DNA of 48,253 bases, taken from the NCBI GenBank assembly GCA_021817735.1, contig JAKAFX010000004.1, positions 1-48,253 on the forward strand, given 5' to 3'. The notes beneath the pieces are model-generated. The model saw only the letters and a list, made by a program, of their open reading frames with translations. It did no database searches and was not told where the DNA came from. The stretch is from Thermoplasmata archaeon. GTDB taxonomy: Archaea > Thermoplasmatota > Thermoplasmata > Thermoplasmatales > Thermoplasmataceae. Made by a program: the position numbers and the translations under genes. Positions within the stretch are counted from its first letter, which is position 1. Each line of letters begins with the position of its first letter. Of this stretch, positions 17,696 through 30,350 are shown in pieces.

Positions 17696-18031
17696 ATGAC
17701 TGATTGCCTGATGTACAACATAATTCTTGAAAATTACCACCCATCTACGATCTGCGTTGAACTCTCATTGGTACCTGAATCACTTGATTATCTTTCCCGG
17801 ATCATTGACAGCCCGCATATCCTGGAAGAGATCCCTGAATTCATCGAGAAGTTTGCAAGGAAGGATGAGATCATGCCTACAGACCGCACAGTTGGTTTTG
17901 TTGTAGTGCATCAACCGAAGAAGAGTATGGCAATTTCCCTCGGAAAGGTGGACCAGGAAGTCAGGAACAGGATGAGAGAATCCTCTGACAGCTTTAGAAC
18001 CAAGAATTTCAACGTTGAACTTGATTTCTGA
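17696..18031 (+). CDS. Hypothetical protein
   Basis: Intact 111-aa ORF with protein-like composition, same strand just downstream of thrS; family not recognised. Confidence 0.55.
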   Translation: MTDCLMYNIILENYHPSTICVELSLVPESLDYLSRIIDSPHILEEIPEFIEKFARKDEIMPTDRTVGFVVVHQPKKSMAISLGKVDQEVRNRMRESSDSFRTKNFNVELDF

Positions 18032-18301: not shown

Positions 18302-18592
18302 ATGTTTGATTCGCCTACCGACTGGCTTATCATAATTGTCGTAGTGCTGGTCCTGTTTGGCGGTGCCAAGAAGATTCCAGAATTCGCAAGGAGCCTTGGA
18401 AAGGCTACAGGCGAGTTCAGTAGGGGAAAGATGGAGATCGAAAAGGAAATCAGGGCCGCAGCAGCAACTCCTACCACTGCAGCAGCACCGCAGAGTTCCA
18501 TAAAGGAAGCTGCAAAGAACCTTGGCATTGAGACCACAAACAAGACGGACGACGAACTTAAGAGAGAGATGTCGGAAAAGCTGAAGAGCTGA
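18302..18592 (+). CDS. tatA: Sec-independent translocase TatA/TatE-like
   Basis: Single N-terminal TM then FGGAKKIPEFARSLGKATGEF amphipathic helix. Confidence 0.92.
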   Translation: MFDSPTDWLIIIVVVLVLFGGAKKIPEFARSLGKATGEFSRGKMEIEKEIRAAAATPTTAAAPQSSIKEAAKNLGIETTNKTDDELKREMSEKLKS

Positions 18593-18595
18593 TGA

Positions 18596-19411
18596 ATGCT
18601 AGAGGAACTGGTAAACAATACTGATTTTCTCAGGCATCTCGAAGAGCTGAGGCACAGAGTAATTAGGATACTCTATTACTTCATATTTTTCTTCGTTTTT
18701 TTCCTAGACTTCCGGTTCAACTTCCTCACGTTGGGTGGCATTCCCGTGCCCTACCCTTATCCCAACTTCTTCGATAATTCAGGATCTCAGGTTCTCCGTC
18801 TGCTGGAAAGCCATGTGCTGCCCGCAAACGCTGTCCTCATAAACGTGAAGCCAACTGACAGCATAGTGGCAGACTTCTATGTGTGCATGTTCCTGTCACT
18901 GATTTTTTCTATGCCTGCCATTGCCTATCACATGTGGAGGTTCATAGCGCCTGGGCTGAAACCCAGCGAGACCATGACGATAAGATACATCGTGGTCCCT
19001 GCCACTTTCCTCTTCCTCCTGGGCTCTTTCATGGGACTGTGGATTGTTGCACCCGAACTTTTCCGGATATTCAACGATTTCAGCATAGGGCTGGGTGCCC
19101 TTGACAGCATGACCCCACTGTCGTTCGTCTCCTTCCTCCTTATCTATACCCTTGCCTTCGGGCTTTCCTTCGAAGTTCCGGTTTTCATGGTCGCACTTAC
19201 TAGGTTTGGAATGGTAACCTCGGATTACTGGTACAGGAACTGGAGATATGCAGTAGTAGCCTCCCTTGTTTTTGGAATGATTTTTTCCCCAGGAGTTACG
19301 GGATTCACGATGGTTGTGATGGCAGCGCCCATGATCGCCCTCTATTTCGCCGGGATCTACTTTGCAAGGCGAACCGAGAGGAACGTTTCACCTATTCCTG
19401 CCGCTGAGTGA
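18596..19411 (+). CDS. tatC: Sec-independent translocase TatC
   Basis: FLRHLEELRHRVIRILYYF; FYVCMFLSLIFSMPAIAYHMWRFIAPGLKPSE; six TM pattern; directly follows tatA. Confidence 0.95.
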   Translation: MLEELVNNTDFLRHLEELRHRVIRILYYFIFFFVFFLDFRFNFLTLGGIPVPYPYPNFFDNSGSQVLRLLESHVLPANAVLINVKPTDSIVADFYVCMFLSLIFSMPAIAYHMWRFIAPGLKPSETMTIRYIVVPATFLFLLGSFMGLWIVAPELFRIFNDFSIGLGALDSMTPLSFVSFLLIYTLAFGLSFEVPVFMVALTRFGMVTSDYWYRNWRYAVVASLVFGMIFSPGVTGFTMVVMAAPMIALYFAGIYFARRTERNVSPIPAAE

Positions 19412-20140
19412 GGTTCTATGCTCCTCCAGCTGCTTCAGCCTGATCCTGCCAGGATCGTAAAGCAGCGGAAGCATTGCGTGGTAGTTTCCCTGTCCAATTG
19501 CAGCTAAGCCTTTGTACCTGTGGTTAAGGAAGCTGTTGATATCCGGGATCATTGCCATCACTGCCCCTGGATCATCGACTATGCCAGAGATTATACCGAG
19601 CCTCCTCGCTGTCTCTTCCCCAAAAAGGTCGCCGGAAGTGACGGTCTTCTGCAATTGGGTGCCGTAGATCTTCCGCGTTGGGTCGATGGCAAGGAACGGC
19701 ATGCCAAACAAGATGTCCGGGAACCCGAACATAGTCCCTCTCGTGCAGTAGGTATAATCAGACAGGAGGGCAATCTCAAGGCCGATTCCAAGGCAGGTTC
19801 CTGAGACAACAGTCACAAACAGTTCCCGGGAGTTGGAAAGCAGGCTGCCCAGGGTTGAAGTCACTGAAATGATGTCACGGAAGTAATCCTGTTCCCGTAT
19901 CCTCTGGCAGGATGCGTCGAAACCAAGCGTGAACAGTTCATTGCTGGTGGAGCTGATGATCGTTGCCCCTTCCTGGAGAGACAGGACGTTTGCAATGGCC
20001 TGAACCAGGTCTTCTAGCATCTCTATATCAATAACTGGATACTGGGAACTGTTGATCTGGATCCTCCGAACCCTTTCATCGATCTCAAGGAAGACCTTGG
20101 ATCGGTTATTGATGTTCTCCACCATTTCAGTTAATGGCAA
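19388..20140 (-). CDS. Enoyl-CoA hydratase/isomerase (crotonase) family protein
   Basis: Crotonase-like fold motifs SGTCLGIGLEIALLSDYTYCTRGTMFGFPDILFGM; converges on and overlaps tatC by 24 nt. Confidence 0.8.
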   Translation of the reverse strand: MPLTEMVENINNRSKVFLEIDERVRRIQINSSQYPVIDIEMLEDLVQAIANVLSLQEGATIISSTSNELFTLGFDASCQRIREQDYFRDIISVTSTLGSLLSNSRELFVTVVSGTCLGIGLEIALLSDYTYCTRGTMFGFPDILFGMPFLAIDPTRKIYGTQLQKTVTSGDLFGEETARRLGIISGIVDDPGAVMAMIPDINSFLNHRYKGLAAIGQGNYHAMLPLLYDPGRIRLKQLEEHRTSLSGRNR

Positions 20141-20221: not shown

Positions 20222-20482
20222 TCAGTACATCGTGAGGTTGTATTTCCGATCTGCCTCGTGGTAAGATTCCAGATCGGTTATGCCAAGGGCTCTTGACAAA
20301 TTTTCCATGGCCTTCGATACAGAGTTGTCGTAAATCTCCCTTCCAAGCACAAGCCTGTGCTGCTCGGGGCTGAACATCACTATTTCACCGTATTTCTTAA
20401 GGCAATGCACAGCTTCTGCGGCTCCTTCCTCTCCTTCGACATGCTCAAGGCATTTCCTGAAGCCGGTCATTGATCGCCACAC
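20222..20482 (-). CDS. Hypothetical protein, last gene of the nuo operon
   Basis: 86-aa ORF overlapping the preceding ORF by 16 nt on the same strand. Confidence 0.65.
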   Translation of the reverse strand: MWRSMTGFRKCLEHVEGEEGAAEAVHCLKKYGEIVMFSPEQHRLVLGREIYDNSVSKAMENLSRALGITDLESYHEADRKYNLTMY

Positions 20483-20829
20483 CTCTTCTGGTCGTAATTT
20501 GGATAATCCACATTATACCTGTCGATGGAGTACCTGGCATAGAATGCGAAGTTGTTGAGGTAGACTTCCACGTCTTCAATGTTACCAAACATGTTCGCGT
20601 ACATTGGATCAAGAAGCTTAGTCACCATGTCATCCGGGGACAATTTCCCCTTCAACATTTCCAGCAAAAGCCCATATGCTTCCTGCAGGTCCGCATATAC
20701 TTGTTTTTTTGTGGCCATTTGCATGAACTTAGCTCTGGTAAGCCTTTTTTCCATCCACTTGACTGCAGACCCGACATCGCCCATTAGCAGGAAAGTCCTG
20801 ATCTGCTCTATATCCAGTTCAAGATTCAT
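20467..20829 (-). CDS. Hypothetical helical protein coupled to nuoN
   Basis: 120-aa ORF; start overlaps the nuoN stop by 4 nt (ATGA type). Confidence 0.75.
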   Translation of the reverse strand: MNLELDIEQIRTFLLMGDVGSAVKWMEKRLTRAKFMQMATKKQVYADLQEAYGLLLEMLKGKLSPDDMVTKLLDPMYANMFGNIEDVEVYLNNFAFYARYSIDRYNVDYPNYDQKRCGDQ

Positions 20830-22292
20830 CCTGTCACCCCGAATAGCCCCTGCGCAAAACCATGCAGGAGAGAGAACAGCGGGAAGTAAAAGAATAGGGC
20901 AACTACCACTATTGCGGATACTATAACGGTAGCAGACGCTATCCTGGATCCTGAAAGAGAGACCCCGCTATCAGGCTTCCAGTACATGTACATTATGACC
21001 CTGAAGTAGTAGAATACAGAGATGGCACTGTTGAGTATGGCTATGATCGCCAGCCACCACAGCTTGGCGTCCACCAAGTAAAGGAACATGTAGAATTTAG
21101 CAGTAAATCCACCTGTGAAAGGGATTCCCGCCAGTGCCAGCAAAATTATGGAGAGACTGAGGGCAAGGGCCGGAGATTTTCTTGCAAATCCTGAGATATC
21201 GGAGAACTCCGGGTTCTCCTTGTCCAGAGTGTTGAGAAATACAAAAGCCCCTCCTTTCATAAAGATGTAAACCAGGGAATATAGCATGGCGGCCGCGACT
21301 GCATTTACTGCAATGAGGCCATAATTCTGGCCTGACCAGAGGGCATAGGACGTGATTGAGAAAACAAGGATAAGGTAGCCTGCCTGGGCTATGCTGGAAT
21401 AGGCAAACAACTTCTTCACGTTGGTCGTTGAGAGAGCCGAAATGTTGCCATATGTCATGGTGAAAATCGCGAGCAGTGTGAAGAGAAGGAAGACGTCTTC
21501 CCCCATTGTGGAGAAACCTACGATAAAGATCTTCAGCATTATCATGAAAGCAACCAGTTTGCTCCCAGTGGAAAGAAAGGCCGAGACAGAGTTTTCCGCC
21601 CCATAGTAAGTGTCGATTGCCCACTGGTGCATGGGAAATATTGCAACCTTGAAGCCAAAACCGATTGTAAGAAACAGAAGGGCTATGAGAAGAGCGGGTT
21701 TTGAAACCACGGCAAGCGCTGAGGTGAGTTCAAAGGTGCCAGCCGCCTGGTAGAAGAACGCAAGCCCGAAGATTATGAAGGAGGTGGAAACCACCCCAGT
21801 GAAGAAGTACTTGGTTGATGCCTCAAGGGTTCTCCTGGTCTTGTGGAATGCCGCCAGGACATAGGTCCCAATGCTCACTGCCTCGAATGAGATGAACAGC
21901 ACTATGAGATTCATGGTGAAGGCTGCAACGATCATCCCGGTAGTCACGAAGAGGAGAAGCGCATAGAATATGTCACCCTTTGCGGATATATTCTTCAGGG
22001 ATGGTAGGACAATGAACAACGACGAAATCACGAAGAGTATGGCAAAGTAAGCGCCAAACTGGCTGTATGCGAAGCTGTTGCTCAGGACAAAGGATGCATT
22101 CTGCGGGATAAGGAGGATGAGTATGGCAGCAATTGCAAGGGCACCGAAAGCAATACCCGCATATGCTTTCTTGCTGGAAGTCGCCAGGCCGAGCCCTAGG
22201 ATGATGAATCCCGCTATGCCGAGGACAATCAGTGGGTAAAGGTATTGCAGCGACTGCACCCCTGTTACTGTAGAGATTGATTCTGATATCAT
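20826..22292 (-). CDS. nuoN: Complex I / Fpo-like subunit N
   Basis: Proton-pumping antiporter-like subunit with about 14 TMs; KLFAYSSIAQAGYLILVF; GGFTAKFYMF; position in operon. Confidence 0.92.
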   Translation of the reverse strand: MISESISTVTGVQSLQYLYPLIVLGIAGFIILGLGLATSSKKAYAGIAFGALAIAAILILLIPQNASFVLSNSFAYSQFGAYFAILFVISSLFIVLPSLKNISAKGDIFYALLLFVTTGMIVAAFTMNLIVLFISFEAVSIGTYVLAAFHKTRRTLEASTKYFFTGVVSTSFIIFGLAFFYQAAGTFELTSALAVVSKPALLIALLFLTIGFGFKVAIFPMHQWAIDTYYGAENSVSAFLSTGSKLVAFMIMLKIFIVGFSTMGEDVFLLFTLLAIFTMTYGNISALSTTNVKKLFAYSSIAQAGYLILVFSITSYALWSGQNYGLIAVNAVAAAMLYSLVYIFMKGGAFVFLNTLDKENPEFSDISGFARKSPALALSLSIILLALAGIPFTGGFTAKFYMFLYLVDAKLWWLAIIAILNSAISVFYYFRVIMYMYWKPDSGVSLSGSRIASATVIVSAIVVVALFFYFPLFSLLHGFAQGLFGVTG

Positions 22293-23761
22293 GCTATTCC
22301 TCCAAGGTATCCTGTAAGCAGCGGGAACACTATTCTTGGGAAAACGCCTATGACCAGGATCGAGATCAGCATGAGAAGCATTGCCGATGCTTCGGAGCGG
22401 GATAGATCCCTGATCTGGCCAAGGTTCTCGTTATATGGGCCGTATAGCGCCTTTTGTGCTGCCCAGATATGATAAGAAGCAGTAATGATCATGGAGAATA
22501 TCACCAAAAATACCAGTGGGCCAAGTATGCCATAGGAACCTGCAATGATGGAAAACTCTGCAACGAAACCTGCGAGGCCCGGCAGGCCAAGTGATGCCAG
22601 TAGCCCGCCGAGGAACAGTGTGGCAAGCACTGGCGACTCCCTGTATATGCCCCCAAGGCCATAGAAGGTGTCATGGCCGGCATGGGTTTTCATATAGTAA
22701 AGAAGGGAGAAGAGGAAGGCCACTATTAGGCCATGCGCGAAGATCTGGAACATGCCGCCGGCAAGGTCAATGATTCCGTTTGGTCCGGTTCCCAGTATGC
22801 CGCTTCCAAAGGCAATGCTAACAAACCCCATGGAACCTGCACTTGCATAGGCCATCATCCGTTTAAGGTTGCTCTGGAACATGGCTGTAAGGGAGAAGTA
22901 GATCAGGCTGATTATGCCCAGCGCTATGAGGAGCCAAAGGAAGAAAGCCGGTATCTGAGGGTACAACGGATAGAGTATTCCAAAGAGTCCGTAACCTCCC
23001 ATTACTGACAGGGCGCCTGCAAGTATTACGGTGACTGGATATGGTGCCTCCTGGTAAGAATCCGGAAGCCAAGAGTGTATTGGAAAAGTCGGAAGTTTGA
23101 CGAGGAAGCCTATGAGGAAACCAGATAGGATGAATACCCTGTAAAAGAAAGGAATGGTGCTGAAAAACGTGGTTGAAAGGAGGTCAGAATTCTGCATCGT
23201 CAGGATGCCATACTCGGAATAATAGTACGAGTACAGCGTAAAGATTGAGAGCAAGATGAATACTGACCCTATGTGGGTGTACACAAAGAACTTCAGGGAT
23301 ACTGAATCCTTCCTTGGCCCCCCGTAAATGCCAATGAGGAAGTATACCGGCACAAGTACAACCTCCCAGAATACATAGAAGAAGAAGAGATCGGTCGACA
23401 TCAGGAGGCCAAATGTTCCAACTTCCGTAAGCAGTACCAACCCATAGTAGACAGGATCATCCTTGCGGTCGGATATGAAAAGTGCAGCAAGGACTATTAT
23501 GGATCCAAGCACGACAAGCAAATCAGTGAAACCGTTAACCCCAAGTGAGAAATAGAAACCAGTGTAGGTTGAAAGCGTGAGGCTGAAACTAGAGATATCT
23601 CCACCATTGTAGCCGGGGTAGAACCGGTAAACAGAATAAAGGATGAATGCCACAGCAACCGCTAGCGAGGATACCCTGGCAAATTGGCGTGAGTGACTTC
23701 CAATGAAGAAAGTGATTATGGATGCTGCCACAAGAAATGCAAAAATATATTCTATTATCAT
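22289..23761 (-). CDS. nuoM: Complex I / Fpo-like subunit M
   Basis: FFYVFWEVVLVPVYFLIGIYGG; VKLPTFPIHSWLPDSYQEAPYPVTVILAG; LKRMMAYASAGSMGFVSI. Confidence 0.94.
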   Translation of the reverse strand: MIIEYIFAFLVAASIITFFIGSHSRQFARVSSLAVAVAFILYSVYRFYPGYNGGDISSFSLTLSTYTGFYFSLGVNGFTDLLVVLGSIIVLAALFISDRKDDPVYYGLVLLTEVGTFGLLMSTDLFFFYVFWEVVLVPVYFLIGIYGGPRKDSVSLKFFVYTHIGSVFILLSIFTLYSYYYSEYGILTMQNSDLLSTTFFSTIPFFYRVFILSGFLIGFLVKLPTFPIHSWLPDSYQEAPYPVTVILAGALSVMGGYGLFGILYPLYPQIPAFFLWLLIALGIISLIYFSLTAMFQSNLKRMMAYASAGSMGFVSIAFGSGILGTGPNGIIDLAGGMFQIFAHGLIVAFLFSLLYYMKTHAGHDTFYGLGGIYRESPVLATLFLGGLLASLGLPGLAGFVAEFSIIAGSYGILGPLVFLVIFSMIITASYHIWAAQKALYGPYNENLGQIRDLSRSEASAMLLMLISILVIGVFPRIVFPLLTGYLGGIA

Positions 23762-25651
23762 TCAGACTCCCCCGACTATCTCAAGAAGTATGAAGACCAG
23801 TGCAGCAGAGATAATGATTAGGAGGAAGTAGTTCTCTACCACTCCGCTCTGGAGTCTCCTTAGAACCTTCCCTGCCTTGAGGAAGGAGCCTCCAAATCTC
23901 TCTACTCCTTCGTTGTAGCTTGATTCCATTCCAGCAAATGCAGATGATAAGGGAAGGATTGCACCCTGCGCCAGGGCATTTGTGAACAGTTTGTCAAGGT
24001 AGTACTTGTTGGTCAACATCTTGTAACCTGGAACCTTTTCTGCGTTGATCTTGGTGAACCTGTCGCCTGCATAAAGTACGTAGGTGACTATCACACCGAT
24101 AACCAGGAAGGCAATGCTCAGCATCTCCGTCATGTCAGGTATAGCAGGTACGGAGGCCCCGGATATGACGAAGCTGTAAAAGCTCCCCTGAAATATCCCA
24201 TATACTAGGGATAGCGCCGCAAGAATGCCCAGCGGGATCAGAACGATCTTCTTCGGATCTTTCGCTTCTGAAGCTAGGTGCGATCTTGGTTTGCCCAGGG
24301 CGACCAGGAAGAACATCCTGAAGGTATACAGGACTGTTGCGAGTGCTCCAAGTTGCAGGAAAATCCAAGGAATGGCCATCAAGAGCGTACCGCTTGACTG
24401 GTAGAATGTGTAAGAAAGGCCGATGATTGTATCCTTGGAGAAATAGGCGGAAGTGAATGGTACTGCGGCAAGTGTGATTGAGCCGATAAAGAGCAGAGTC
24501 ACGGTATAAGGCATGCGCCTCCACAGACCCCCCATCTGCCTTACATCCCTGAGATCCATCAGTGCAAGTAAAATAGCTCCTGCGCTCATGAATAGGAGCG
24601 CCTTGAAGAAAGCATGAACAACAAGATGATACATAGAATACGAGATCACGTCGGAGCCAAACATGCTTCCAAGTCCCAGCGCAGCGAGCATATATCCCAA
24701 CTGGCTGATAGTGGAGTATGCAAGTATACGCTTTATGTCGTTGACCACGATCCCGATTGTCCCAGCAAACAGGGCAGTAAATGAGCCTATGAATAACACC
24801 GCATAAAGGGATATTGGATATGCTTCGTAGAACAATGGATATACTCTAGCCACCAGGTATATTCCTGCAGTGACCATTGTAGCTGCGTGGATCAGTGCAG
24901 AGACTGTTGTGGGACCTTCCATAGCATCAGGGATCCATACGTGCAGCGGGAACTGGGATGATTTTCCTATTGCCCCTCCCAGAAACAGCAGGGAGATAAT
25001 TGTCAGGTTGTACTGCCCTATGAGCGATGGGAGCTGAGCGGCATTATTGACTATGAAGCTGATACTGAGAGGATCACTGGCAATTGGAGAAAGACTTGTG
25101 TATATCACTGCCAGCCCAATCAGGAAGAGCAGGTCCCCTACCCTGGTGACGATGAAAGCCTTCTTTGCAGCTGAGACTGCATTGGGCTTGAAAAACCAGA
25201 ATCCTATAAGCAGGTATGAACACAGCCCGACCAGTTCCCAGAACATGAAGAATTCCAGCAGGTTTGAGGACTCCACCAGCCCGAGCATGCCTGATGTGAA
25301 AAGTGCGGTTTCTGCAAAATAGGCGTGCCTGTTCGGGTCACCGCCCATATAATACAGGGCAAACAGATGGATCATGAGTGATACGAAGGTCACCATCAGA
25401 AGCATTACGATGGCGAGATGATCCACGAATATTCCGTAGTTGATGTTGTAGAACCAAGTGTACTGCGACTCAATTTGAGACCCGCTGGAAACCTTGAGAT
25501 ATACCAGGTATGACAGAACAAGAGAAAGGCCTATGGACGCAGACGCGATTATGCCGGATGCATTCCTGCTTTTCCTTCCGGCAAGGAGGGCAATAGGAGA
25601 GGCAATCATGGGCGAAAGAAAGATTCCCCATGTCTCAAGTTCTGTAATCAT
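23762..25651 (-). CDS. nuoL: Complex I / Fpo-like subunit L
   Basis: GKSSQFPLHVWIPDAMEGPTTVSALIHAATMVTAGIYLVARVYPLF; DIKRILAYSTISQLGYMLAALG. Confidence 0.95.
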   Translation of the reverse strand: MITELETWGIFLSPMIASPIALLAGRKSRNASGIIASASIGLSLVLSYLVYLKVSSGSQIESQYTWFYNINYGIFVDHLAIVMLLMVTFVSLMIHLFALYYMGGDPNRHAYFAETALFTSGMLGLVESSNLLEFFMFWELVGLCSYLLIGFWFFKPNAVSAAKKAFIVTRVGDLLFLIGLAVIYTSLSPIASDPLSISFIVNNAAQLPSLIGQYNLTIISLLFLGGAIGKSSQFPLHVWIPDAMEGPTTVSALIHAATMVTAGIYLVARVYPLFYEAYPISLYAVLFIGSFTALFAGTIGIVVNDIKRILAYSTISQLGYMLAALGLGSMFGSDVISYSMYHLVVHAFFKALLFMSAGAILLALMDLRDVRQMGGLWRRMPYTVTLLFIGSITLAAVPFTSAYFSKDTIIGLSYTFYQSSGTLLMAIPWIFLQLGALATVLYTFRMFFLVALGKPRSHLASEAKDPKKIVLIPLGILAALSLVYGIFQGSFYSFVISGASVPAIPDMTEMLSIAFLVIGVIVTYVLYAGDRFTKINAEKVPGYKMLTNKYYLDKLFTNALAQGAILPLSSAFAGMESSYNEGVERFGGSFLKAGKVLRRLQSGVVENYFLLIIISAALVFILLEIVGGV

Positions 25652-25941
25652 TCCCTGATCTCCTTCAGCAACGAAATGCTGACTTTCCCGAACTTGCGGT
25701 AAACAGCAATCAGGAGGCTGACCCCAACCACGGATTCAACCGCCGCTATGGCAATCACGAAGAGGGCAAGCACGATTGGTTCCATGGAGTTGACTGCTGA
25801 GGCGACAAGTGCGATGACGGCTGAATTGATCATTATTTCAACTGAGATTAGCATCTTGATACCGATACTTGACGTCATTACCCCGTACAAACCTACAACA
25901 AACAGGAAAAGTGCAACTGCGTCTGCTATGAAGATATCCAA
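25648..25941 (-). CDS. nuoK: Complex I / Fpo-like subunit K
   Basis: GVMTSSIGIKMLISVEIMINSAVIAL ... VIAIAAVESVVGVSLLIAVYRKFG. Confidence 0.93.
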   Translation of the reverse strand: MDIFIADAVALFLFVVGLYGVMTSSIGIKMLISVEIMINSAVIALVASAVNSMEPIVLALFVIAIAAVESVVGVSLLIAVYRKFGKVSISLLKEIRE

Positions 25942-26160
25942 TTAGTCTTCCCTCCCGGCAATGTAAAGCATCCCAACTATTCCTCCGACGAGAATGAGCG
26001 AAATGAGTTCAAATGGAACCAGGTAAATCCCGAATAGCTGGCTGCTGATTTCTGAGATGTTCTGGGACAGGTATGTTGTGGTTCCTGAAATCTGCAGTAC
26101 TTCATATAAAATAACAAGGAAGAACAGTGCAACTGCTGAGCCCGCAGCCATCTTATTCAA
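25942..26160 (-). CDS. nuoJ: Complex I subunit J, C-terminal part (FpoJ-C-like)
   Basis: 72 aa; two TMs ending PFELISLILVGGIVGMLYIAGRED; follows the N-terminal half. Confidence 0.78.
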   Translation of the reverse strand: MNKMAAGSAVALFFLVILYEVLQISGTTTYLSQNISEISSQLFGIYLVPFELISLILVGGIVGMLYIAGRED

Positions 26161-26401
26161 CTTCTTTCCCTCCCGTGAGCATAAGAGTGAATGCTATGAG
26201 AGTTACGACTGCACCCACGTAAACTAGAAGCTCAATTGTTCCAAGAAAATCCACTCCCATAAAAATGAATAGTGAACCGACACCAAACAGGAAAATCATG
26301 AGATACACTGCGGAATGAACGATGTTCTTCTCCCTCACAGCCATGATTGCGGTTATGCCAAGAATCACCGAGAATATCAGGAATATGACCGTGAAGATCA
26401 T
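26153..26401 (-). CDS. nuoJ: Complex I subunit J, N-terminal part (FpoJ-N-like)
   Basis: 82 aa; ENIVHSAVYLMIFLFGVGSLFIFMGVDFLGTIELLVYVGAVVTLIAFTLML is the conserved NuoJ core. Confidence 0.85.
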   Translation of the reverse strand: MIFTVIFLIFSVILGITAIMAVREKNIVHSAVYLMIFLFGVGSLFIFMGVDFLGTIELLVYVGAVVTLIAFTLMLTGGKEVE

Positions 26402-26844
26402 TTCTTCACCTTGTCTTCATCCAGTGCCAGTTCTTCTGGTGAGTATGTGAAGCTGTTCCTTGTCCTCGAAGTCTCGAAGACATGAGTCAGGTATATAGCC
26501 TCAGTTGGGCATATCTCCTGGCAGTTCCTGCATACTGTGCATGTGCCAAAGTTGACGTCTGGGTATATCATCCTCTTGTTGCGGGGATTTTCCCTTTGGA
26601 CGTTCTGCATTTTTATTGAGCCATTAGGGCATACCTGCTCGCACAGTGTGCATCCTACGCAGTCATCAAGCTTCAGGTATATCCGGAACCTGAATCTTTC
26701 AGGCAAGTCCGGCTTCTCTTCAGGATACTGAAGTGTTACCGGTTTCTGGAAGAGGTGTTTTCCTACAGTGGCCATCCCGGAGATCACGCCAACCAGCGGA
26801 ACACGCTTTTTTGGTTCTTCCACTTCCTTTATTCCTATCGTCAT
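26398..26844 (-). CDS. nuoI: Complex I 2x[4Fe-4S] subunit I
   Basis: Two ferredoxin motifs DDCVGCTLCEQVCP and FGTCTVCRNCQEICP. Confidence 0.95.
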   Translation of the reverse strand: MTIGIKEVEEPKKRVPLVGVISGMATVGKHLFQKPVTLQYPEEKPDLPERFRFRIYLKLDDCVGCTLCEQVCPNGSIKMQNVQRENPRNKRMIYPDVNFGTCTVCRNCQEICPTEAIYLTHVFETSRTRNSFTYSPEELALDEDKVKK

Positions 26845-26845
26845 T

Positions 26846-27886
26846 TTACCACCCCAACCCCAGTGTGAGGATTCCTGTGAGGATCAGGTTCACGAATGAT
26901 ATTGGGAGGAGGTACTTCCACCCAAAATTAACGAACTTGTCTATTCGGATCCTCGGCATCGAGAGCCATACCGTGAATGATATGAGAACCAGGACCATTG
27001 CCTTTATGAATAGCCACACTACGCCTGCTTCTGTTGAGAGAGGACCATTGTAGCCCGACAAATAAAGGAGAGAAACAAGGGTGGATCCTAGCAAAATCGA
27101 TCCAAAGAGCCCAATGTAGAATATGCCGAATCTCATTCCAGTATATTCAGTGGAAAACCCGGAAACAAGCTCGCTGTCGCTTTCACCCATGTCGAAGGGC
27201 GTGTATGATGCCCTTGCAACCATTGAGGTAAAGAACACGAATACCCCTAGAGGTTGAAGAATGGCATATGGCAGAAACTGGGCGGAGACGATTGAACTTA
27301 TGCTTAGCGATTCCGGTACCCTTGCGGAAGCCATCATCACGATGGCCAGTATAGATAACATCATAGGGACCTCAAACGAAATATCCTTGGCGATTGAGCG
27401 AAGGGCCCCGATTAGCGCATACTTGTTATGCGAACTTATGCCCGCAAGAACCTCGCCGAGAGGCATTATTGCTATAACAGCGAATACCAGGAGGAGACTG
27501 ACTGCAGAGTTTGTGACAGTCAAGGAGCCAATGCCTATCAGTGATCCGTAGGGCAGAATGGTGAATGCAAGGAAAAGCCCGATCATCACGATCATTGGGG
27601 CTACCCTGTAAGGAAGATCATCCCTTTCCTTGGGAAGAATTGATTCTTTCCCGATCAACTTTAGCGCATCTGCGATAAGCTGAAGTAAGCCAAATTTCCC
27701 CACCCTGTTTGGCCCCAGCCTTAACTGGAGTCTGGCCATGAATTTTCTGAAGAGATATATCACAAATATAAGCAGGAGAGAGATGACAATCAAGTAGAGC
27801 AGTGCTTCTATGAAATAACTAACAGCATAGCCTGGATAGTGACCTAGGAACGAAAATATTCCATAAAGTGTGCTCAGAAGAGTCAT
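26846..27886 (-). CDS. nuoH: Complex I subunit H
   Basis: RLQLRLGPNRVGKFGLLQLIADALKLIGKE; ARASYTPFDMGESDSELVSGFSTEYTGM. Confidence 0.96.
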   Translation of the reverse strand: MTLLSTLYGIFSFLGHYPGYAVSYFIEALLYLIVISLLLIFVIYLFRKFMARLQLRLGPNRVGKFGLLQLIADALKLIGKESILPKERDDLPYRVAPMIVMIGLFLAFTILPYGSLIGIGSLTVTNSAVSLLLVFAVIAIMPLGEVLAGISSHNKYALIGALRSIAKDISFEVPMMLSILAIVMMASARVPESLSISSIVSAQFLPYAILQPLGVFVFFTSMVARASYTPFDMGESDSELVSGFSTEYTGMRFGIFYIGLFGSILLGSTLVSLLYLSGYNGPLSTEAGVVWLFIKAMVLVLISFTVWLSMPRIRIDKFVNFGWKYLLPISFVNLILTGILTLGLGW

Positions 27887-28986
27887 CTGTCTATCTCCCC
27901 GAATACTAGGTCAATGGAACCGGAAATCGCTATTAGATCTGCAATCATCTGATTCTTTGCTAGTTCTGGCAACACTGAGAGGTTCTTGAAAGTGGGACTG
28001 CGTACATGAACCCTGTAGGGTTTGACCCCACCGTCTCCAACGATGTAAACCCCGAATTCACCCTTGCTTGACTCTGTTCTGGCATAGACCTCGCCGTCTC
28101 CCCTGAGACGGATCATCATGGGTTTTTTTGCCTTGGGATTGAAGAATGGACCTTCTGGGATCTTGTCGATGATCTGCTTGATTATCCTGATGGACTGCCT
28201 GATCTCCTCGAATCTGACTGAGAATCTCGCAAGTGAGTCTCCCTTCTTCGAAATCGGTATGTCGAAGTCTACTTTGTCATAGAGGAGGTAAGGTTCCGCC
28301 TTCCTGACATCATATGGAACACCTGAGGCCCTCAGCATTGGCCCTGTAACTCCATACTGAATTGCGATCTCCGGATCCAGATAGCCGATCCCCCTCGTCC
28401 TTGAAAGGAAAACGTCATTCTTTGCGAACAGGTTGTAGATATCCTCCAACTTTCTGGGGAACTCGCTCAGGAATGTCTTGATGTGATCCACTATCTCCGG
28501 GGTGATGTCCTGGTATACTCCCCCTATGCTGAAATAGTTGGTTTCCTGCCTTGAGCCACATGACTCTGTGAATATCCTTAGTATCTTCTCCCTCTCTACG
28601 AAACAGTAAAAGAATGGAGTGAGCATTCCAAGATCAAGACCGAAGGCGCCCGCCCATACGAGGTGAGAAGCAATTCTGGAAAGCTCGTTCATTATTGTCC
28701 GTATATAGACTGCCCTCTCTGGCGGAGGTATCCCGAGAAGCTTTTCAGCCGCCTCAAGGTAACCAGCCTCCATGTTCATTGAAGCTACGTAATCCATTCT
28801 GTCAAAATAGACAAGATTGTCGCAGTAGTATGTCATTTCGCAGAGTTTCTCTGCATTCCTGTGAAGGTATCCAATTACGGGCTCAATCTCCCTGATGATC
28901 TCCCCTTCGACCTTTACCTTGAGTCGAAGCACTCCATGCATCGAAGGGTGCTGAGGCCCCATGTTGAGCTGCATGAGATCCGACAT
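27883..28986 (-). CDS. nuoD: Complex I 49-kDa subunit D
   Basis: LNMGPQHPSMHGVLRLKVKVEGE; EPVIGYLHRNAEKLCE; C-terminal SGSIDLVFGEIDR. Confidence 0.96.
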   Translation of the reverse strand: MSDLMQLNMGPQHPSMHGVLRLKVKVEGEIIREIEPVIGYLHRNAEKLCEMTYYCDNLVYFDRMDYVASMNMEAGYLEAAEKLLGIPPPERAVYIRTIMNELSRIASHLVWAGAFGLDLGMLTPFFYCFVEREKILRIFTESCGSRQETNYFSIGGVYQDITPEIVDHIKTFLSEFPRKLEDIYNLFAKNDVFLSRTRGIGYLDPEIAIQYGVTGPMLRASGVPYDVRKAEPYLLYDKVDFDIPISKKGDSLARFSVRFEEIRQSIRIIKQIIDKIPEGPFFNPKAKKPMMIRLRGDGEVYARTESSKGEFGVYIVGDGGVKPYRVHVRSPTFKNLSVLPELAKNQMIADLIAISGSIDLVFGEIDR

Positions 28987-28988
28987 AT

Positions 28989-29447
28989 TTACCAGCCGTC
29001 CCCTGGATCAAAGGTGGAATAGTCCTCTCCATCCTCATCCATGTTAATGTACTGCACATTGCCAAGATCGTAATCTTTCCTTAGGGGGTGCCCTACCCAT
29101 GATTCAGGCAGGAACATCCTCTTAAGGTTAGGATGGCCTTCAAACTTGATGCCCATTAGGTCCCACTGCTCTCTCTCGTCCCAGTTGGCACTCCTCCAGA
29201 GAGAGGTAACGCTCGGAACTGTGCAGTTGTTCGTAGTGGTCTTCACAACGATGTACCGATCCTGTTCCACCGAGTGAAGGTGATAGACCACCTCGATGTG
29301 ATCTTTCCTGTCCACCCCGGTTATGAGTGAAAGATGGTTAAATCCCTCATCCTTCCTGGCTCTCATGAATTCAAGAAGCTTCTCCTTGGGAACCTTGAAA
29401 ATCTGCCTTCCGGCTTTATCCACCTGCTGTTGACCTTCATCTGCCAT
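28989..29447 (-). CDS. nuoC: Complex I 30-kDa subunit C
   Basis: REQWDLMGIKFEGHPNLKRMFLPESWVGHPLRKDYDL. Confidence 0.93.
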   Translation of the reverse strand: MADEGQQQVDKAGRQIFKVPKEKLLEFMRARKDEGFNHLSLITGVDRKDHIEVVYHLHSVEQDRYIVVKTTTNNCTVPSVTSLWRSANWDEREQWDLMGIKFEGHPNLKRMFLPESWVGHPLRKDYDLGNVQYINMDEDGEDYSTFDPGDGW

Positions 29448-29451
29448 TCTC

Positions 29452-29925
29452 TCACCTGTCAGATTCGCCGCGAATCCTCTTCTGCAGTGTTGTTATGCCG
29501 AATATAAGTGCTTCTGGTGTCGGCGGGCAGCCCGGTACATATACATCCACAGGTATCACCTTGTCTACCCCGAGCACAACTGAGTAACCCTTCACGTAGG
29601 GCCCACCCTGAATGACGCAGACTCCCATTGCAATGACGTACTTGGGGAACGGCATTTCGTCATAGAGCCTCTTTACCCGGGGAGCCATTTTTTTGGTAAC
29701 CGTACCGGCAACTATCATCAGATCTGATTGCCTTGGAGAGTTCCTGAATATTTCGCTGCCAAATCTTGCAACGTCATAATTCGCACCCTGCATTGCCATC
29801 ATCTCTATGGCACAGCAGGCAAGGCCAAAGGTAAGCGGCCAGAGCGAATTGCTCCTGCCCCACTCCATGGCGTTCTCGAGGGTGGTGGTAATTATCCCGA
29901 AATCTCCATCCTTCACTTTATCCAC
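29452..29925 (-). CDS. nuoB: Complex I subunit B
   Basis: [41 protein letters not shown] (Cys ligands of N2). Confidence 0.96.
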
Positions 29926-30350
29926 CTCATGTATCCTTCCTTGAAAGCGTAAAAGACTGCAAACATAGGCATGGCCAGGAATATTAGCGTCTCAATGAAA
30001 GGGTAGAGCCCTAGCGAATAGAAATCGTAAGCCCAGGCAAGAAGTAGAACCATGTCTACATCAAACAATACGAATAGTAGGATAACGACATAATACTGAA
30101 GATTGACGAAGGTGCCAAATTCACCCCTGGCTTTTTCCCCACTCTCGTACGGTTCCAGGTACGCAGTGTCCTTCACCGGTGGGCTGGACTCATTTGCCAT
30201 CCCACTAATAATGTCGGATGGCCTGAAGCTGGGTTTCCTGCCAGGCGCATACCTGGCTGATTGTATGGACGGCAAAATCGAAAATAATCCAATCACGCCT
30301 AGCACCAGCAGGATAAGTACAACTGCAAGCACTATGTAGCCGTCATTCAT
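29913..30350 (-). CDS. nuoA: Complex I subunit A
   Basis: [44 protein letters not shown]. Confidence 0.93.

Follow-up and report, generated by a model that had tools for sequence, protein, structure and literature searches.

Archaeal complex I enzymes without NuoEFG are usually regarded as a bare core of 11 subunits, and the question raised by this locus is whether two small genes that follow such an operon, here called orf120 and orf82, belong to the complex as well. The window (the whole stretch of 48,253 nucleotides that was analysed) comes from a genome of 1.38 Mb and 85% completeness (G000:C94), in which the operon comprises 11 subunits in the order nuoA-B-C-D-H-I-J-K-L-M-N and nuoEFG are not adjoining (Table 1). 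The first-pass annotation had taken the two genes either for lineage-specific accessory or assembly subunits or for part of the missing electron-input module, and had named absence of linkage in related genomes and homology to an unrelated soluble enzyme family as observations that would speak against this. The comparisons described below point to the former: orf120 and orf82 would encode lineage-specific partners of complex I in Thermoplasmatales, these being most probably accessory subunits that stay permanently on its cytoplasmic face, a reading to which a probability of roughly 60% is given.

Table 1. Features of the nuo operon, of the two genes that follow it and of their surroundings in the window.
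Feature	Position	Strand	Remarks
nuoA	29913-30350	minus	start of the 11-subunit nuo operon
rest of the nuo operon: nuoA, B, C, D, H, I, J (two pieces), K	25648..30350	minus	
nuoJ, one piece	26153-26401	minus	82 aa
nuoJ, other piece	25942-26160	minus	72 aa
nuoL	23762..25651	minus	grouped with nuoM and orf120 where genus g2 has split the operon
nuoM	22289..23761	minus	grouped with nuoL and orf120 where genus g2 has split the operon
nuoN	20826..22292	minus	directly upstream of orf120; Pfam Proton_antipo_M
orf120	20467..20829	minus	120 aa; homologues in 92 genomes, all in f1, f3 or f4
orf120 tail, residues 104-119 (RYNVDYPNYDQKRCGD)	20473..20520	minus	model pLDDT 48-67
orf82	20222..20470	minus	82 aa, start ATG 20470; homologues in 92 genomes of the order
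orf82 C-terminal pentapeptide NLTMY	20225..20239	minus	last residues of the protein
enoyl-CoA hydratase/isomerase-like gene	19388-20140	minus	Pfam ECH_1
tatA and tatC	18302-19411	plus	
TA0956 family member	17696-18031	plus	Pfam PF11513

The first of the two ORFs was confirmed as annotated, lying on the nuo strand with its start within the nuoN stop (ATGA, 20826-20829, an overlap of 4 nt), and in relatives the two genes are joined in differing ways, from a 4-nt overlap up to a spacing of some 12 nt. For the second ORF, existence and strand stood, while the length of 86 aa and the overlap of 16 nt had to be revised: they derive from a GTG at 20482, an artefact that arises when the first start codon is used mechanically. 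Specifically, upstream starts are not conserved, and the ATG that shares 4 nt (ATGA) with the end of orf120 is possible as a start in nearly all of 30 relatives, so that the overlap between orf120 and orf82 represents conserved coupling. No terminator-like site was found between these genes at the locus. Within the operon, nuoJ is split into two overlapping pieces; a two-piece nuoJ (nuoJJ) is likewise reported for Cuniculiplasma (PMC5155288), and fpoJ occurs as N and C pieces in Methanomassiliicoccales (PMC4153887). Beyond the operon, the enoyl-CoA hydratase/isomerase-like gene is found downstream of orf82 on the same strand in many but not all relatives, and tatA and tatC are convergent to the operon end in most of them. 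The window also holds a member of TA0956, a Thermoplasma family of unknown function, and a similar gene directly adjoins orf82 in another genome (G024, L120:7855-8205).

Both orf120 and orf82 are genuine genes. Their homologues lie directly 3′ of nuoN in all 29 loci first inspected besides the window, and dN/dS values of 0.03-0.18 (pairs of close relatives with computable dS) indicate purifying selection; retention across three families together with these values places the pair beyond chance. An apparent fusion of nuoN and orf120 into a 583-aa frame (G618) was rejected, as a run of N in the assembly joins two frames.

Across the 117 genomes sampled from the order, orf82 was detected in 92, orf120 in 95 and nuoN in 96, the last two counts each including three from family f2 (weak and spurious matches for orf120, only distantly similar sequences for nuoN). 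The orf120 candidates in f2 (E 2e-4 to 9e-4) are located within ORFs of about 267 aa and match the helical body only, the tail being absent in one that was inspected. Family f2, with G059 as its representative, has neither gene; at L124 this genome carries, in place of the nuo operon, a rearranged N-L-H-B-C-D cluster that looks like a membrane-bound hydrogenase or an Fpo-like complex. The 11-gene operon is found in three families (f1, f3, f4), where 93 genomes carry nuoN and 91 of these have orf82 (for orf120 the figure is 91 or nearly so). The two exceptions (G294 and G612) have contigs that stop at nuoN or inside orf120, the apparent absence in G294 being a contig that terminates within orf120, and one genome with orf82 and no strong nuoN match (G615) has a contig that stops inside a nuoN directly upstream. 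Wherever the contig continues, the pair follows the operon, and at fully covered loci the gene order is ...K-L-M-N-orf120-orf82, genus g2 being the one in which it is split apart. Among the 117 genomes, no confirmed complete member of f1, f3 or f4 has the pair without complex I, or the reverse. Gene linkage and co-occurrence with core genes, by which accessory subunits of complex I are judged, were both found for the pair; the absence of linkage that would have spoken against the annotation is thus not what these three families present.

The wider class was sampled partially, with 250 genomes, of which 185 carry nuoN, 144 of them outside f1, f3 and f4. Profiles built with the divergent f3 and f4 members included (A3 and A4) found no credible homologue in these 250 genomes outside the three families, and no orf120 or orf82 homologue lies downstream at 20 nuoN loci from outside them. 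When about 85,000 species of bacteria and archaea were scanned with the orf82 alignment and its NLTMY-tail pattern (the latter would miss divergent tails), 55 loci were recovered, all in Thermoplasmata/Thermoplasmatota or similarly named records, the relatives including Thermoplasma, Ferroplasma acidarmanus, Acidiplasma aeolicum, Cuniculiplasma and E-plasma; a contig scan with a single orf120 protein as query gave no match. In class members outside the order (L143-L162), the genes behind nuoN often resemble polyprenyl synthases and geranylgeranyl reductases (names given by sequence reading), neighbours which suggest a link between quinone synthesis and complex I.

Homology searches did not connect the pair to any described family. 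Pfam gave no match for the two proteins as encoded in the window at E<=10 and none that was consistent across alignments, searches of NCBIfam and of PDB sequences gave no credible match for orf120 or orf82, and Foldseek with the predicted models found nothing in the PDB at E<=0.001 for either. These HMM and structure searches therefore gave no homology to an unrelated soluble enzyme family, the second observation named against the annotation. They likewise gave no homology to known accessory subunits of complex I, whether by Pfam, NCBIfam, PDB sequence or PDB fold, so the proteins, if subunits, would form a new family. No paper naming the two genes was found among open-licence full-text papers, and the passages of PMC5155288 and PMC3750248 on Thermoplasmatales respiration, which describe nuoABCDHIJJKLMN and no NuoEF, make no mention of them.

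Both products are acidic and hydrophilic soluble proteins (14.1 kDa and pI 4.9 for orf120, 9.4 kDa and pI 5.5 for orf82), and a cytoplasmic location is suggested by the lack of an apparent signal or membrane segment in either. AlphaFold predicts an all-helical bundle with a disordered C-terminal tail for orf120 (mean pLDDT 88) and an HHEEHHH fold for orf82 (mean pLDDT 90.5). The low confidence that it gives to both tails falls on the best conserved parts of each protein, with a mean information of 3.25 bits in the tail vs 1.71 in the body for orf120, and of 3.85 vs 2.52 bits for orf82. More specifically, the orf120 tail follows the pattern [DN]RY..xxP.[FY][DN].KRC.D (also given as R-Y-N-x-x-Y-P-x-[FY]-D-x-K-R-C-x-D), in which R, Y, P and R are found in 100% of 78 distinct sequences, K in 95%, D in 96% and C in 90%, while N-[LI]-T-[MID]-Y-COOH terminates orf82 in 98 of 98 loci. 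Since the tails are invariant and yet lie outside the predicted fold, docking to a conserved partner is suggested, and the almost absolutely conserved C-termini (RYNVDYPNYDQKRCGDQ; KYNLTMY) are short enough for testing as docking peptides.

Which part of the complex each protein might serve is indicated by genus g2, which groups on the Ferroplasma/Acidiplasma side, has a GC content of 37% and, judging from this placement and GC, is probably Picrophilus. In G024, the core operon (L120) reads nuoA-B-C-D-H-I-J-K-N-orf82, without nuoL, nuoM and orf120, and two separate further loci (L121, L122) read nuoL-nuoM-orf120. A second species (G615) repeats the arrangement, in that M-orf120 occurs at two loci and orf82 comes straight after nuoN, which makes an assembly error unlikely. 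In trees of NuoL and NuoM, both copies group with Ferroplasma/Acidiplasma (support 1.0 and 0.997), so that duplication and loss inside this lineage produced the arrangement; support for the duplication from the orf120 gene tree is weak (0.43-0.57). Purifying selection acts on each of the two orf120 copies (dN/dS 0.06 and 0.18), and both NuoL/NuoM pairs retain nearly all conserved charged residues. The tail of the L122 copy is partly degraded (YPEYINKRIDP), and this second locus (L122:3012-6658) has a GC of 0.32 vs 0.37-0.38; it may be specialised or decaying.

Given an original order L-M-N-orf120-orf82, the presence of orf120 with both nuoL-nuoM copies, and of orf82 with nuoN, is the outcome expected if ORF120 serves NuoL-NuoM and ORF82 the core. 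The split, which is one evolutionary event in one genus and two species, suggests such a division, with ORF120 belonging to the NuoL-NuoM distal proton-pumping arm; it offers a natural way of allotting one partner to the distal pump and the other to the core, and makes membrane-arm assembly directly testable. A tentative extension is that one complex I core of g2 takes either of two interchangeable distal modules (NuoL-NuoM-ORF120, of type 1 or of type 2, each coupled through its ORF120), or that both modules join one enlarged pump.

Taken as permanent subunits, each protein would consist of a small folded body and a flexible C-terminal tail that becomes ordered on docking. The helical bundle of orf120 would dock on the distal NuoL-NuoM membrane arm via its R-Y-N-x-x-Y-P-x-[FY]-D-x-K-R-C-x-D tail, and the small alpha/beta protein of orf82 on the core (the NuoN or Q-module side) via its N-L-T-x-Y carboxy terminus, and both may have a stabilising or assembly role for complex I. 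Binding, the subunits bound, the cytoplasmic location and the stabilising role are each inferred from the sequence comparisons. The suggestion of lineage-specific accessory or assembly subunits is well supported, with a linkage to nuo that is complete in three families, with both genes missing where this operon type is missing, and with no homologous enzyme family found. If both families are constant partners, the complex I of a whole acidophilic archaeal group exceeds the minimal core.

Permanent subunits are favoured over assembly chaperones that leave the finished complex, orf120 escorting NuoL-NuoM and orf82 escorting NuoN or the core, which is the less likely reading but the best of the rivals; it would give identical linkage and an identical split pattern. 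TPR-like folds often serve as chaperones, and orf120 contains a helix-turn-helix in which a TPR-like L..G[DE]..DA pattern occurs, its best PDB sequence matches including TPR proteins. However, these matches are not significant (E 0.03-0.2), TPR_30 is matched by 1 of 26 members at E 0.12, Foldseek gives E>=1.4 (again no match at E<=0.001), and no significant TPR profile or fold match marks orf120 as a TPR protein; moreover, permanent docking would account at least equally well for C-termini that are invariant to the very end.

Accessory subunits are preferred far more clearly over the idea that orf120 and orf82 form or dock the missing electron-input module, e.g. as a ferredoxin-binding site replacing NuoEFG. 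That nuoEFG are missing from the operon, as in all Thermoplasmatales that PMC5155288 reports on, and that orf82 remains with the core genes in genus g2 would agree with it, but the proposal is very improbable on several grounds: (i) in the split operons orf120 comes after nuoL and nuoM, which encode the region of complex I most remote from the electron entry site, (ii) neither protein has flavin, NAD, F420 or Fe-S binding domains of the NuoEFG/FpoF type, and the homologue alignments contain no cluster-type cysteines or cofactor motifs, and (iii) nuoN occurs in 144 further genomes of the class sample that lack both genes. The single well-conserved Cys of orf120 is replaced by Ser, Ala or Ile in some homologues and orf82 has no conserved Cys in its alignment, which bears out the earlier remark that an Fe-S motif is lacking; for orf120, the association with nuoL-nuoM and the lack of cofactor motifs led to rejection of an electron-input role, and this part of the annotation is not supported. 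It is just as improbable that the pair are independent housekeeping or regulatory genes sharing a transcript, since tatAC and the enoyl-CoA hydratase-like gene, which also cluster nearby in many relatives, are missing from the nuo end in several genera in which the pair is not, and since orf120 was kept beside both nuoL-nuoM copies, and only there, after the split.

Extra genes beyond the 11 core subunits are also known from Methanosarcina, where FpoO, a 2Fe-2S protein, is encoded after fpoN. Like FpoF, which oxidises F420H2 or ferredoxin (PMC9012536), FpoO is an electron-input protein, unlike orf120 and orf82 with their lack of conserved cluster-type cysteines; the view that the pair are not direct FpoO equivalents is consistent with the data, FpoO being set apart by description. 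The closest published parallel, likened by gene position, comes from another archaeal phylum: according to a figure legend (S6 Fig of PMC9012536), FpoX and FpoY follow the Fpo operon in place of FpoO in ANME-2c and Ca. Syntrophoarchaeum, that is, two conserved proteins after an operon of the 11-subunit type in one archaeal lineage. Known bacterial accessory subunits of complex I occur mainly in Alphaproteobacteria and Cyanophyceae (PMC12361115), and those of the NDUFA9, A12, S4 and S6 type in mitochondria and bacteria (PMC12361115) are also small lineage-restricted additions to a conserved core, although no sequence or fold similarity to orf120 or orf82 was found. Cyanobacterial NDH-1M combines a common core with exchangeable NdhD/NdhF modules that have their own small partners, as in NdhD3-NdhF3-CupA-CupS (PMC9283085). 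Genus g2 resembles this system in having one core operon and two nuoL-nuoM-orf120 loci, with a small partner per antiporter pair, but differs in that neither sequence nor fold links orf120 to any PDB chain (solved NDH-1 subunits included) and in that the other genera of orf120 carriers have a single unsplit operon. If its modules are indeed exchangeable, g2 would provide an archaeal equivalent of the modular cyanobacterial NDH-1.
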